From Lachnospiraceae bacterium (lineage in GTDB: Bacteria > Bacillota > Clostridia > Lachnospirales > Lachnospiraceae): a stretch of 47,131 nucleotides of DNA. This document shows, piece after piece, positions 36,943 to 42,603 of the stretch (its first letter is position 1; every line of letters starts with the position of its first letter). The translations under genes and the position numbers were made by a program. Under the pieces are notes generated by a model. It was not told the origin of the DNA. It ran no database searches and worked only from the letters and a program-made list of their open reading frames with translations. The DNA is taken from positions 1-47,131 of the forward strand of contig JAFTWC010000043.1 of NCBI GenBank assembly GCA_017465475.1, given 5' to 3'.

Positions 36943-36975
36943 TATAACAAAAGAGCCGACTATCACTGCCGGCTC
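36943..36975 (-). terminator. Terminator of the Rpn-type nuclease gene
   Basis: GAGCCG (36953-36958) pairs with CGGCTC (36970-36975). On the minus strand TTTTGTTATAC follows. It lies about 50 bases after the stop. Confidence 0.7.
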
Positions 36976-37022: not shown

Positions 37023-37223
37023 TTAATTCATCTCCTGTACCACCTGTTCATACAGGGGCCGGATAACTTCCACCGTCTCTTCCAACTCATCCGCTATTTG
37101 CTCCAAAGACTTGCCTTTGGCAAGTTTCTTTTGGATGAGAGTAAGAAGATGGAGACGTTCGCCTTGCTCAATACCCTGCTCAAGAATTTCAACAGTTAAG
37201 GTCTTATATACTTGTCCTCCCAT
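37023..37223 (-). CDS. Candidate internally initiated 66-residue C-terminal product of the Rpn gene
   Basis: Inside the Rpn gene, in frame, an ATG (complement of 37221-37223) is preceded by GGAGGC (complement of 37231-37236) with seven bases between. This is a better ribosome binding site than that of many full genes here. The product would begin MGGQVYKTLTVEILEQG and share the Rpn C-terminus. Published work on Rpn proteins describes short products from internal starts that neutralise the full-length nuclease. That this one does so is inference. Confidence 0.5.
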   Translation of the reverse strand: MGGQVYKTLTVEILEQGIEQGERLHLLTLIQKKLAKGKSLEQIADELEETVEVIRPLYEQVVQEMN

Positions 37224-37985
37224 GGTAATCGCCTCCATTCGTTTCCGCATTTCTTTGTGCTTGCGAAAAATGTGATTGTCAATCTTTTGGATATGGCTGA
37301 TAAGTTCCGTATAAATCAGCCCTTTTTCCTCGCCGATGGCCTGCTCCAAGCGAGTACGAATGTCAAGAAGCTCCGCTAACAAAACACGGGAGGCTTCTTC
37401 ATCTCGGCAAAGCTCGGGAAGAGAACGTTCGTAACGCATAAAATAGTACGGGAGCAAAGCTAACAGGTTCTTTTCAAAAAGCTCATCTTTGGTGTAGTTC
37501 TGCGCCTTAATAATCGGAATGTCGTAACAATGATGGGTACCGTCCTGAAAACGAATCCGCACGCGGGCACAATCTTTTGTGTGTTCATTGTGCCGTAAGT
37601 AAATAACGCAGGAATGTGGGAAAAACATTTCATAATCGTGTTCGGAACCGCCTGAAAGTTCGACTTCCTTCGCACTTTGCAAGGCAAGTGCCATGTCATG
37701 CTCAATGATGCGCAGGGCAATGGTCCGGTCCGGCGTACTCTGACATTCCAGGTGATAATGCTTTTCGCGGATACCAAGAACGCAGTCGGTGATGGTCACC
37801 CCACTTTTGGTAAAATGCTCGTTCTTTAGCTGCGTGATGGGTTCATCATCCGGATAATCCGTAGAAAAGATTTCGTTAATAAGCGGAATCATAATCTCCG
37901 GAATCCTCTCCAACATGGTGCGAAACACATCGTCAAAAACGGTATTGCTTTCCTGTACTTCATTTAATTCCATTGTATCTTCCAT
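37023..37985 (-). CDS. Rpn-family PD-(D/E)XK nuclease (recombination-promoting nuclease / transposase-like)
   Basis: The 320-residue protein matches the Rpn (PDDEXK_2) family: the N-terminal FDDVFRTMLERIPEIMIPLINEIF, then Asp67 followed by YHLECQS (Glu80, Gln82) as the nuclease core. A long helical region follows, then a charged C-terminus (VEILEQGIEQGERL, GKSLEQIADELEE). Rpn proteins are DNA nucleases linked to recombination and, for some, phage defence. The start ATG has AAAGGAG at good spacing, and a promoter lies just upstream. An internal in-frame start near the C-terminus has a strong ribosome binding site. It is the only recognisable defence-like gene in the window. Confidence 0.85.
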   Translation of the reverse strand: MEDTMELNEVQESNTVFDDVFRTMLERIPEIMIPLINEIFSTDYPDDEPITQLKNEHFTKSGVTITDCVLGIREKHYHLECQSTPDRTIALRIIEHDMALALQSAKEVELSGGSEHDYEMFFPHSCVIYLRHNEHTKDCARVRIRFQDGTHHCYDIPIIKAQNYTKDELFEKNLLALLPYYFMRYERSLPELCRDEEASRVLLAELLDIRTRLEQAIGEEKGLIYTELISHIQKIDNHIFRKHKEMRKRMEAITMGGQVYKTLTVEILEQGIEQGERLHLLTLIQKKLAKGKSLEQIADELEETVEVIRPLYEQVVQEMN

Positions 37986-38000
37986 ATCGTCTCTCCTTTG

Positions 38001-38428: not shown

Positions 38429-40879
38429 TTATTCGAAAGTAATGCTGTTAAGAACAATATTGGCAACACCATCTACATTACACATAAAGTAAATTTCAGA
38501 CAGTGAATAATTACGTGCAGCAGAATAGTCAGTCCACTCTGTTGCATCAAACTCTAAAGTATGCGGAGAGGTTATCGTAGCTGCCGAATATGCATCTACA
38601 AATGCCGTCTTTGCACCCCACTGGTTGGTTTCAGCTTCCGGATTAATCAACTTAATATCCAAAGCAGCATCGCTGGTCATATCAAGGATAATTCTATCAT
38701 ACTGAGACAAATCAACTGCCTCCGGAAGAACAAAACGGATTTCCTGATTTTGTGCATTAATGGTGCCTGCTATTGCTCCGTCAACTACGTCAACAGTATA
38801 ACCATAACCGCCCGGAGTAAGATCTGCAAAATTGTAAATCGGCGCTCCGCTACCGGTTTCACCACCACCGTTTCCACCGGCATTTTCTTCCGCCGGTAAC
38901 TTATCAGCAGACTTTGCAAATACAATCTTACTGAAGGTAATCGTATTGGTAGCACCTGCGGCACCGTTTACACCAAACTTCTCATAGGTCTCACCGTATG
39001 CCAAATTCAATGTGCCGTCTACACCCTTGTAATCCCAAGACTTCACTTCCGGATTATCTGCAGTTTCACCGGTCTTCCAAACCTTCATGGTTGCGGTGCC
39101 TTCGCCTTCACCGTCATAAAGCTTAATTACAGTATAAACACTTGCATCGATAGAATCCGGAAGTCTCCACTTCACACCTGCATAATCACCGGTAAAGTCA
39201 ACGGTTACAGAACCGTCATCATTTACATTGTAAGTTGCATTGCTCCACTCGTAAATCAATTCATCAAACGTATACTCTACGGTATCCGGAAGGTTAGCAC
39301 CTGCGTCATCGCCTTCCTCTGCCAAAGTAAGTTCAACATCCTTTACGGTTACATTCAGCGGAAGCTGATCATTACCACAAGACATAAAGTCAATTCTGGT
39401 CACTGTCTTACCGGTTACATTATAGCTCTTCGTCACAGCCTTCATGGTTACTTCATCACTACCGTTATACCAGTTTACGCTGTCGGTACACCATCCTGCA
39501 CCGTTTAAGTCAAGCATATTTCCACTTCCGTCAATAAGCTTAATTGCGGTCTGCTTATCACTTTCCATGGTAATCTTAATCACTTTAAGCTTATCCTGTG
39601 CCTCTGCCGGAATATCATAAGAAGCAGTTGCATAGGTTCCGGTCATCTTAGCCTTATTTCCGGTAACTTCGATAGTATCACTACCGTTTAAGTTATAAAG
39701 TACCACATCAGACGGCGGCTCCGGCTTCGGAAGCTGCGGCATCGGAACTACCGGTGCGAAGGTATTGCTACCGGTGATATTGGAGATACCTGCCATGGTA
39801 ACGGTTGCTACACAACCCGGCTCAATGGTACACTCTGCTACATTACCAGCACCGGTCATGGAGTTATCAGCACCTGCAATAGATGCTTCCATTACTTCTG
39901 CGTTCGGTCCGATATCCACTGCAACTTCGGTACCTTCCATCTTGATGTTATCAACAGAAGAAAGTACGCTGATGTTACAATTCTTTGCGCCTGCATCGGT
40001 AACTAAATTGTTAGCCGGCATATTCAAGGAGAATAAGCCCTCTGCAGTACCGTCACCAACACTGGTGCACTTTACGGTCTCTACTACAGAGTCCGGGGAA
40101 CGAAGGATTACGTTACCTTCACCTTCCGTTGCCACGCTAATGGTACCGAATAAAGAATCTTCAGCCTTAACATTTACAATACCGAATACACCGTTTTCGG
40201 ACTTGCTCTGGGTAATGTTCATATCACCCACATAACCGGAAATGGTTACGTTCATATCCTGTGTCGCACTGGTATACGCTACGTTTAATGCAACCGGCAT
40301 GGTACCGTCTGCACAATCTACCTTTGCGTTACCGGAAAGAGTGATATTCTCAACCTTCTGTGCACTGCCTTCCATGTCTGCGCCCTTTAATGCTACGGTC
40401 GGAGCTTCGGTGGAAAGAGCCTTATTCTTAGCCTGAATATCATTGATGAATCCTGCAATGTCAAACTTGCTCGGGTCTTCCGATGCAATCATCACATCGA
40501 TGTATTCACCCAATGCATCGTTTAAATCAATCAACTCGGACGGAGTTACGGTTACATCCTTAATCTGTGCATCCCAAATCTGAATCTCCGGGGTGTTACC
40601 GCTTTCAATGCTTAACTCGCCGATCTCACTTCCGTCTACATAAATGCGCTTTACATCTACGTCGTTCGGAATTACTACTTTATCTAACTTCTCACCGCTG
40701 AGTACCAGTTCACCGTCGGTATCAACCATACTCTGCGTGATTTCTAATACGTTTCCTGCTTTCGGAGCCGGAGCAATTAACTTCACGTCTTCTGCCTTTG
40801 CAGTAGCAGGAACTCCAAGACTTGCAACCATCGTCAGGGCAAGAGCCGCTGCGATTGCTTTTAATCCAAATCTCTTCAT
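38429..40879 (-). CDS. Large secreted surface protein with three beta-rich repeat modules
   Basis: The 816-residue protein has a classical signal peptide (MKRFGLKAIAAALALTMVASLG, cleavage near TAKA-ED). Residues 30-380 are beta-rich with repeated NITLSGNAKV/NVTISGYVG-like strands, suggesting a beta-helix. Three related modules follow (about 383-520, 530-657, 680-816) with the pattern YxFxDL, LPxxxDxSxYxxIxLxM, IKLxD and a final SITF/KIVF strand; short Gly/Ser/Pro linkers separate them. I see no enzyme motifs, LPXTG or S-layer motif. Carbohydrate binding is plausible. I chose the ATG at 40879 (AAAGGAG upstream) over an upstream TTG at 40942. It follows the next gene closely. Confidence 0.75.
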   Translation of the reverse strand: MKRFGLKAIAAALALTMVASLGVPATAKAEDVKLIAPAPKAGNVLEITQSMVDTDGELVLSGEKLDKVVIPNDVDVKRIYVDGSEIGELSIESGNTPEIQIWDAQIKDVTVTPSELIDLNDALGEYIDVMIASEDPSKFDIAGFINDIQAKNKALSTEAPTVALKGADMEGSAQKVENITLSGNAKVDCADGTMPVALNVAYTSATQDMNVTISGYVGDMNITQSKSENGVFGIVNVKAEDSLFGTISVATEGEGNVILRSPDSVVETVKCTSVGDGTAEGLFSLNMPANNLVTDAGAKNCNISVLSSVDNIKMEGTEVAVDIGPNAEVMEASIAGADNSMTGAGNVAECTIEPGCVATVTMAGISNITGSNTFAPVVPMPQLPKPEPPSDVVLYNLNGSDTIEVTGNKAKMTGTYATASYDIPAEAQDKLKVIKITMESDKQTAIKLIDGSGNMLDLNGAGWCTDSVNWYNGSDEVTMKAVTKSYNVTGKTVTRIDFMSCGNDQLPLNVTVKDVELTLAEEGDDAGANLPDTVEYTFDELIYEWSNATYNVNDDGSVTVDFTGDYAGVKWRLPDSIDASVYTVIKLYDGEGEGTATMKVWKTGETADNPEVKSWDYKGVDGTLNLAYGETYEKFGVNGAAGATNTITFSKIVFAKSADKLPAEENAGGNGGGETGSGAPIYNFADLTPGGYGYTVDVVDGAIAGTINAQNQEIRFVLPEAVDLSQYDRIILDMTSDAALDIKLINPEAETNQWGAKTAFVDAYSAATITSPHTLEFDATEWTDYSAARNYSLSEIYFMCNVDGVANIVLNSITFE

Positions 40880-40901
40880 GGTTCTCCTTTCTTTTCGGAC
40901 C

Positions 40902-40919
40902 GGCCCTCCAAAGAGGGCC
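40902..40919 (-). promoter_or_regulatory. Intergenic hairpin between the two surface-protein genes
   Basis: GGCCCTC (40902-40908) pairs with GAGGGCC (40913-40919) around a four-base loop. On the minus strand GGTCCGAAAAG follows, not a U-run, so it is probably an RNA-stabilising or processing hairpin rather than a terminator. It sits 22 bases before the start codon. Confidence 0.5.
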
Positions 40920-40963
40920 TGCCGAATCACCTCAAGGTTCAATATGTTCTTATCTAATAGTTC

Positions 40964-42550
40964 TTACTGCTTCGGAACAAGAGTGATGCTCTTAAGTAAT
41001 GCTTCACATGCACCGTTCTGTGCCATAATACCGATGTAATCGAACTCCTTATTCATAAGATCTTCGCTTACCGGCTCATTCTCACCGTATCCGGTCTTGC
41101 TGTAGGAAAGGCTGATGTCTGCCATATCTGCAGAGCCCTTGCTCCACCAGAACGTGATTGCACTGCTCATGTTAGCAGAATCTAATAACTTAATACCAAC
41201 TAAATCCGTGGTGGACATGGTCATGATGATTTCCTGGAAATCGCCGATCTTCATCTTCTGCGGCATCTTAAACTGTGCCTCTGCATACTGCTTACTCCAT
41301 GCAACCTTTACAGCACCGCCTGCTTCTTCGGAGGTGTAATCGTATCCGCCCTTCTGTAAGTCAGCTACATTCAATACAACTGCCTTAGACAAATCAACCG
41401 GCTCAACAATAAGCTTGGTACCTGCCTTTACTTCGGTGATGGAGAACTTATCAACCATGAAGTCGATTAAGGTATCTGCCTCGAAGTAAAGAAGAAGATC
41501 TGTGGTATCATCTGCTACGGTGAACTCACCGGAAATCTCAGTCCATTCATTCTTAGCAGTGGCAACAGCTCCCACACCGGAATACTCGCCGCCGTTCTTA
41601 CGTAAGGTAGCCTTAATGTTCTCGCCGTCTCCTGCGGTCTGCTTTACATAAGCGGTAAGCTTATAGGTTCCGCCAAGCTTCAAGATGCCGTTTACTTCCA
41701 CACCGACACCCTGCCAGTTGGAACTTCTGCCGGATACCTGAAGGAACTGGGTACCGTCTGCAGCAGAAGCGGACTTCTTAATGGAAACGGAAGCACCGCC
41801 GTGGCCGGAGAACTTGCCCTGGCCCTTTTCAAAGTTTTCGGTATATACACTGCCGGTGGACGGCTTCGGAGCCTGGGTCGGCTTCGGTGCCTGGGTCGGC
41901 TTCGGCTTGTCTTCGCTGCCCGGTGCCGGGGTTGCATCCGGTGCCTTGGTCGGTTCCGGAGCTCCGTACACGGTAATCTCTACGCTGTCAGTCTTACCGC
42001 TCATGGTAGTAGCGGTAATGGTAACGGTGCCGTTGCCCTCGCCGTATACAACACCGTTTTTATCTACGGTAGCAACCGATTCGTCGGAAGAAGTCCAGGT
42101 GGTAACGTCGTTGGACTTACTCGGGGTAAGTGCACGATTTAAATCGTAATCCTTACCGTACTTCAACTCATCGATTTTATTGATAATCTCAATCTTAACC
42201 GCCGGCTTACGAACCTTTGCAGTTGCGGTTAACTTCTGTGTCTTACCTTCCACGGTAACTTCACAGATAATCTTTGTCTCGCCCTTGGTGATACCGGTCA
42301 CTACACCGTCCTCATCAACAACAGCGACAGCCGGATTGCTGCTCTTCCAAGTAACAACAGCATCCTTCGGTGCATTCTTCACATCCAAATCAAACGTACG
42401 TCTGGTCAGGACATTAAAGCTCTTCTTGTTTAAACCGGCTTCCCCAGCTGCGTAAGACTTACCAGCTCCGGCAAACAGCACCGTTATTCCCATTGCAAGT
42501 GCCAAAGCACCAACGAGAATCCCTCTCACAGTCTTTTTACTGTTTTTCAT
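40964..42550 (-). CDS. Secreted surface protein: two Big_2 Ig-like domains, CBM-like domain and a C-terminal beta module
   Basis: The 528-residue protein has a signal peptide (cleaved near KSYAAGEAG). Two bacterial Ig-like group 2 domains follow (about 37-118, 120-198; WKSSNPAVAVVDEDGVVTG, WTSSDESVATVDKNGVVYG). A Pro/Thr/Lys linker with TQAPKP repeats comes next (about 199-237), then a CBM4/9/22-like jelly-roll (about 238-375; YTENFEKGQGKFSGHGG, LTAYVKQTAGDGENI). The C-terminal module (about 390-528) matches those of the downstream protein (VLNVADLQKGGYDYT, IGIKLLDS-like). No catalytic domain is seen. It probably binds plant or other glycans at the cell surface. The start ATG at 42550 has AAAGGAG; a longer ORF start at 42589 is not used. 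Confidence 0.8.
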   Translation of the reverse strand: MKNSKKTVRGILVGALALAMGITVLFAGAGKSYAAGEAGLNKKSFNVLTRRTFDLDVKNAPKDAVVTWKSSNPAVAVVDEDGVVTGITKGETKIICEVTVEGKTQKLTATAKVRKPAVKIEIINKIDELKYGKDYDLNRALTPSKSNDVTTWTSSDESVATVDKNGVVYGEGNGTVTITATTMSGKTDSVEITVYGAPEPTKAPDATPAPGSEDKPKPTQAPKPTQAPKPSTGSVYTENFEKGQGKFSGHGGASVSIKKSASAADGTQFLQVSGRSSNWQGVGVEVNGILKLGGTYKLTAYVKQTAGDGENIKATLRKNGGEYSGVGAVATAKNEWTEISGEFTVADDTTDLLLYFEADTLIDFMVDKFSITEVKAGTKLIVEPVDLSKAVVLNVADLQKGGYDYTSEEAGGAVKVAWSKQYAEAQFKMPQKMKIGDFQEIIMTMSTTDLVGIKLLDSANMSSAITFWWSKGSADMADISLSYSKTGYGENEPVSEDLMNKEFDYIGIMAQNGACEALLKSITLVPKQ

Positions 42551-42603
42551 TTTGCTTCTCCTTTTGTCAAAATAGAATAGTTGCGACAATACGCACTAAT
42601 ACA

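Follow-up and report, generated by a model that had tools for sequence, protein, structure and literature searches.

The window—the whole stretch of 47,131 nucleotides analysed here—carries on its minus strand, to which the parts of this gene given below all belong, a gene at 37023..37985 that starts with ATG and encodes 320 amino acids plus the stop codon. From its likeness to TIGR01784 and from its active-site positions, the product is a putative full-length Rpn-type nuclease, i.e. an RpnL-like toxin. The start codon is preceded by the Shine-Dalgarno (SD) sequence AAAGGAG (37993..37999). Inside the gene and in frame with it lies a second ORF, at 37023..37223, that would give 66 amino acids plus the stop codon, identical to residues 255-320 of the full-length protein; this product, for which an AF2 model was obtained, is our candidate for an RpnS-like antitoxin. 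Its start codon ATG (Met255, 37221..37223) stands behind the SD sequence GGAGG (37232..37236) with a spacer of 8 nt, or 7 when counted after GGAGGC. The earlier note on this DNA had described exactly this arrangement, an in-frame internal ATG behind GGAGGC with a seven-base gap and a 66-residue C-terminal product, and the sequence bears it out; absent from that note is a second in-frame ATG, at 37238-37236, which overlaps the internal SD. Residues 14-21 of the short product are the 4-residue repeats LEQG-IEQG (37161..37184), and residues 266-320 of the full-length protein (37026..37190) form a tail module common to genes with other N-terminal families.

The gene had also been described as a self-contained module, with a short leader and its own terminator. 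The terminator holds: a terminator-like hairpin (GAGCCG..CGGCTC) followed by the T run TTTTGTT lies at 36953..36975, and terminator-like sites number 3 in the region versus 0.7 expected. The short leader finds no support: promoter-like sites occur at the frequency found in shuffled sequence (3 versus 2.3), and from the upstream one, with its -10 at 38006-38001, transcription would begin inside the SD of the main start. No internal sigma-70-like promoter was found within the gene on its own strand. Two overlapping terminator-like hairpins lie on the opposite (+) strand at 37103-37127, inside the tail region.

The pairing energy of SDs was computed for the 16 bases at -20 to -5 against the 16S tail, in what we take to be its sequence. 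The internal SD reaches -14.3 kcal/mol, the strongest value among 350 internal ATGs of the window (in frame and lying 30 codons or more within the 34 longest open frames that do not overlap), the next being -11.7; the gene's own start pairs more weakly, at -9.2 kcal/mol. The 33 first ATGs of the window frames average -8.3, and one of them (-15.6) is stronger than the internal site. An SD-like stretch may reflect the protein sequence it encodes, and we separated protein from RNA constraint with a null in which the 8 codons before the Met are recoded synonymously following each gene's codon usage. Taken singly the window gene gives only p = 0.043 in this test, so that the strength of the case for the SD comes from the relatives.

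The putative nuclease is too divergent for the curated profiles. With the 320-aa protein a Pfam search returned nothing of note (no PF04754 or PF12784) and PADLOC no Rpn or defence match, while in NCBIfam TIGR01784 (Rpn) scores 20.4 bits, below its cut-off of 52.1, and covers the C-terminal part. The same profile is found at E<0.01 in 9/13 aligned members of the window gene's own family, hereafter family A (window gene included), the best at 8e-6. We take the sub-cut-off score as a limit of the profiles rather than a defining biological feature, hence the term divergent member. Aligned with E. coli RpnA by hhalign, the protein matches at the E-x-Q-S motif and at the tail, with an E of 0.0018 that stands for a single comparison and a probability of only 14.8%. 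The RpnA active site has been mutated: the changes D11A, D63A, E82A and Q84K are reported to have abolished all three tested phenotypes, and Q84A and R94A to have abolished recombination while retaining toxicity (Kingston et al. 2017, PMC5350276). All five positions have counterparts here. D18 (37932..37934, in 77/80 family A members) and D67 (37785..37787, in all 78 non-gap rows of 80) were matched by eye to D11 and D63. The others were placed by the hhalign alignment: E80-C-Q82 (37740..37748) corresponds to E82-H-Q84, with E80 in 79/79 non-gap rows and position 82 occupied by Q in 57 and E in 22, and R92 (37710..37712, in 80/80 members) corresponds to R94. The AF2 model of the full-length protein is of low confidence (mean pLDDT 58.5), and its structural matches, being uninterpretable, do not confirm the nuclease fold, PD-(D/E)XK. 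The five positions lead us to read the N-terminal domain as that of a divergent Rpn nuclease whose active site is apparently in place.

This domain was found in 75/397 genomes of the same taxonomic family (own genome included, the 397 being drawn from a larger group), and a species-genome scan yielded 12 loci. Their titles read Lachnospiraceae, Clostridium or Clostridiaceae, save for three loci from two strains called just "Bacterium". Family A was built from 30 loci, the window gene among them, and 40 chosen further places of the same-family search (weaker rows, fragments and rows interrupted by stops being passed over), to which we added three genus loci (L008-L010) and nine of the 12 species-scan loci, L053-L055 being the same genes as L009, L008 and L010. 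Identical frames, frames shorter than 150 aa and a spurious minus-strand frame of L043 were dropped, leaving 80 frames, window included. At the internal start 77 of these have Met, one a GTG-encoded Val (L097) and one Phe (L084), and one reaches the contig end (L082). The column ranks eighth in conservation among 302, and no other Met column is as well kept, the next having Met in 56/80; the column of the ATG at 37238-37236 has Met in 8/80 and is mostly Val. The usual motif is [IV]-M-G-G-[KQR]-[VI]-L, replaced by M-T in a subgroup with coiled-coil tails. L084 has a GTG codon just before its Phe codon and is thus a natural variant of the start; GTG in place of ATG also occurs outside family A, in L116 of family B described below.

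For the recoding test, the 78 family A frames with M or V at the site were grouped into 42 clusters (60% identity). Their SD pairing averages -14.2 kcal/mol versus -8.75 after recoding, and is stronger than the own null mean in 42/42 clusters (Z -11.6). Among 241 offsets scanned, only those at most 2 codons from the Met stand out, the next reaching -2.8. We further compared the real anti-SD with 60 shuffled ones, none containing CCUCC or CUCCU: in family A the real value of -11.6 lies beyond all 60 (minimum -8.4, mean -2.8).

A genus search showed similar tails behind other N-termini, and two further families, B (with MCNLS at the internal start) and C (MCEAL), were first noticed through this tail likeness to the window gene. 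Family B has an invariant E-x-Q and, in the two members scanned, PDDEXK_2 (PF12784) below cut-off; family C has an invariant E-x-K and, likewise in two scanned, no Pfam match above cut-off. Between the N-termini of A, B and C no similarity was found by BLAST (E<=1e-3) nor by hhalign. Families B and C of the genus resemble the window gene by the internal SD-ATG arrangement and, for some members, by a common tail whose identity reaches 90% over 48 aa, and differ from it by N-terminal domains without detectable sequence similarity. Of 35 family B frames one pseudogene fragment was dropped and the degraded L002 retained; in the 34 remaining [MV]CN is always present at the junction (GTG once, in L116), and in 25/25 clusters SD pairing is tighter than under the null (Z -10.5). 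Family C comprises 37 frames, 33 with the motif (L142, L152, L154 and L156 lack it); the motif includes the Met, so that the conservation of this Met is not independent evidence. Such evidence comes from the SD test, in which 22/22 clusters pair more strongly than the null (Z -8.3 at the Met, -9.3 at the preceding codon). In the anti-SD control the real values, -10.0 for B and -8.4 for C, again lie beyond all 60 shuffles (minima -7.5 and -7.4, means -4.9 and -5.2). The means below zero in the three families (-2.8, -4.9 and -5.2) reveal that part of the SD signal is a general purine-rich codon choice.

A class-wide search found a match in 12/391 genomes. Other taxonomic families contributed five long frames, spread over three genomes (L186-L188, L192 and L196); the N-terminal part of L187 is without match. 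Each of the five carries an internal Met, 56 to 82 residues before the C-terminus, at which pairing is -13.4 or stronger, and the truncated class-level relatives L189 and L193 have no such internal start. The genome of the window itself contains a family C gene (L004, contig 3) with a MCEAL internal start and GREEG/GRAEG repeats, and two degraded rpn-like family B genes (L002 and L003/L006, contigs 6 and 65) with broken frames; their tails share 83-84% DNA identity with that of the window gene.

The earlier note had proposed codon-level conservation of GGAGG and ATG across homologues as a check, and had considered that homologues lacking either would speak against its idea. The conservation was found: the start codon is kept as described above, the SD exceeds synonymous expectation and the real anti-SD surpasses 60/60 shuffles in the three families. 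Codon choice thus shows that the second start has been maintained in evolution, i.e. that a putative internal ribosome-binding site, together with its start codon, is kept by selection at the junction of nuclease domain and tail. The same recoding test is applicable at the predicted internal start of any genes-within-genes candidate.

This arrangement recalls the Rpn proteins of E. coli, where the short RpnS is made from an internal start and counters toxicity (Zhong et al. 2023, PMC10327210, bioRxiv version); RpnA_S binds to RpnA_L and prevents it from cleaving DNA, and a rpn gene of C. difficile also makes RpnS (PMC10327210). In E. coli rpnA, AAGGAG stands 6 nt before the internal ATG. The window gene shares with the E. 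coli Rpn (COG5464 / TIGR01784 / PF04754) the D, D, E-x-Q and R active-site positions in the N-terminus, an internal start with AAGGAG/GGAGG before the tail, a short three-helix tail protein, the status of accessory gene, and 4-residue repeats of varying number 8-20 residues past the internal Met. It differs in its divergence, which puts it out of reach of Pfam and under the NCBIfam cut-off, and in the MGG motif at its internal start; besides, no defence genes were found around it and no promoter inside it. It therefore fits the Rpn features testable on sequence, except the curated profile cut-offs and the fold, and is best called, on these features, a divergent Rpn member.

The tail adds to this likeness. 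The AF2 model of the 66-aa product (mean pLDDT 84.5) has a long helix at 9-35 and two short ones at 40-46 and 51-65, and RpnA_S is reported as three helices, the first being long (Zhong et al., PMC10327210). By hhalign the tail profile aligns with RpnA_S over 31 columns with E 0.0011, again a single comparison, and a probability of 20.7%. The model also resembles HTH domains at middling Z, and RpnS has been related to HTH motifs by HHPred (Zhong et al., PMC10327210). Compared with the E. coli RpnA_S structure 7TH0, the window product is thus alike in its internal start, in its three helices with a long first one and in the 31 aligned columns, and unlike in its length (66 aa versus 49) and in the 16% identity over the aligned part; the likeness comes from profile and helix count and not from structural superposition.

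We consider it probable that this single gene constitutes an Rpn-type toxin-antitoxin unit, its antitoxin, of the RpnS type, being intragenic. The earlier note had suggested such a unit, and its suggestion gains support from the conserved internal start, the counterparts of the active site, the 4-residue repeats and the three-helix model of the tail. By analogy with E. coli we infer the toxin and antitoxin roles of the two proteins, translation from the internal start and a function in phage defence. Ribosomes starting at 37223 would make the 66-aa tail protein, which might form a dimer, via its long helix with the repeats, with the identical tail of the full-length chain and so hold the nuclease inactive; once the tail protein is released, probably in phage attack, the nuclease would cut DNA. 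If so, intragenic antitoxins, tested in a few rpn genes, would also occur in divergent families of gut Clostridia.

The evidence given so far reveals a selected start and not the role of its product. The internal start could thus be real and the tail protein be a structural or stoichiometric subunit, or an activator, instead of an inhibitor, as for Cas11d made with Cas10d, a case cited by Zhong et al. (PMC10327210). Against such a role, removal of RpnS made RpnA, RpnB and RpnP2 more toxic in E. coli, and RpnA_S and RpnB_S each blocked SOS induction by their own partner (PMC10327210); the repeats, the site and the modelled helices of the tail agree with an inhibitor, so that we hold a subunit or activator to be rather improbable.

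Another explanation dispenses with the second product altogether: the SD-like stretch would cause ribosome pausing, or help folding, and Met-Gly-Gly would be kept for the fold. The stretch does sit at a domain boundary, MGG is conserved as protein sequence, and a structural role of this region is not judgeable from the AF2 model, which is of low confidence at residues 243-272. Pausing, however, requires no start codon at a fixed distance, while the three families, with differing residues around it, share an ATG or GTG behind the SD, mostly at 7-11 nt. Moreover SD-like sequence is avoided around and just after the ATG: in family A the Gly-Gly codons following the Met give Z +4 to +5 at offsets +4 to +7. 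In codons 2-6 of the internal frame (37206-37220 in the window) family A often has GGT or GGC before GGA; the window gene itself has GGA GGA. Pausing at a boundary is for us very improbable.

That an ordinary Met lies by chance behind purine-rich codons would agree with the single-gene p value, and is hardly credible given the rank of this site, best of 350 in the window, and the contrary result of the tests on relatives. Equally hard to credit is that the internal start is a relic in a decaying mobile copy without activity, as the two other, degraded rpn-like copies of the genome might evoke, for the window copy is intact in its frame, active-site positions, both starts and terminator.

The toxin-antitoxin reading bears on how such genes may change specificity: as the same tail would be on both proteins, a change in the repeats or an exchange of tail would alter toxin and antitoxin together and leave them matched. 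Many family A tails have little or no repeat. Among pairs whose N-termini are identical at 85% or more and whose tails differ in length, the difference is a multiple of four in 13/16; at 60% N-terminal identity or more it is so in 57/104, other length changes occurring too, and these pairs are not independent of one another. On contig 2 of G270, at about 171-178 kb (L037 and L068), three closely spaced family A copies with N-termini 98% identical have tails that differ by 8, 10 and 2 four-residue units.

Tails also appear, from their similarities, to have been exchanged between families. At E<=1e-5 there are 52 A-B, 30 A-C and 40 B-C tail links; with the last 36 residues only, E<=1e-4 and the seed loci, through which B and C were first noticed, left out, there remain 33, 9 and 10, and a partner tail in another family is found for 23/75 A, 16/30 B and 10/30 C members (seed loci left out). 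The best 12 cross-family links have 39-58% identity, so that they are not recent. Within family A, the same loci being left out, the sharing of tails falls with the N-terminal identity of the pair, from 76/126 at 60% or more to 14/444 at 40-60%, 22/1036 at 30-40% and 16/1169 below 30%; this fall below 60% head identity indicates that tails turn over faster than heads. Between families, seed loci left out, the proportions are 33/2250 (A-B), 9/2250 (A-C) and 10/900 (B-C): a distant family A head is hardly likelier to share a tail than a family B head (16/1169 versus 33/2250). Both observations speak against tails being just the slowly evolving portion of genes with an ancient common origin.

The window gene may itself be a recent case. 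Its tail is 90% identical in amino acids (48 aa) and 84% in DNA (133/159) to that of a degraded family B gene of the same genome, versus 77% in DNA (119/155) to that of its own orthologue L008. Among 129 sites 21 group the window with the degraded gene only and 7 with L008 only (p 0.0125, tree support 78). Over the 17 codons after the internal Met the orthologues L008, L009 and L010 are alike at 40 to 42 of 51 bases, and the window matches L009 and L010 at 35/51; where the repeats begin the orthologues diverge (7 to 14 of 24 bases alike), L009 ending at the contig end after the repeats. Likeness just after the Met and divergence at the repeats suggest that the exchange took place in the repeats or close to them, on the downstream side of the internal start.

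Hence the tentative proposal, to which we give somewhat less than an even chance, that the tail is an exchangeable toxin-antitoxin cassette: at least three families would keep their own internal start before 4-residue (12-bp) repeats and swap tails downstream. One recombination in the repeats would then re-specify toxin and antitoxin jointly, changing identity without an unprotected phase, and in gut Clostridia nuclease heads and immunity tails would make up a repertoire of combinations. Tails swapping between unrelated heads would be a simple answer to the question of how both specificities change at the same time. The literature searched showed no account of codon-level selection on the internal start, of its presence in three N-terminally dissimilar families or of the apparent tail exchange between them.

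The surroundings of the gene resemble those of an accessory insertion. The neighbour gene, which encodes an EAL domain, is present in 8/9 relatives, and beside it no rpn gene was found within flanks of up to 1.5 kb (about 0.3 kb upstream for L175, none for L177). When five window genes, rpn included, were sought beside three orthologues, rpn alone was found (one side only for L105). An EAL neighbour with no rpn found beside it in the relatives, and orthologues without the window neighbours, make the gene look inserted. No relatives were found in viral contigs or in phage or plasmid records. PADLOC on 20 other long window frames gave matches on three proteins only, to general helicase or AAA domains; by their Pfam domains we read them as probable Mfd, DeaD and ClpC. 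Two large proteins adjoin the rpn gene at 38429-42589: the first is without Pfam match and the second has bacterial Ig-like and carbohydrate-binding domains.
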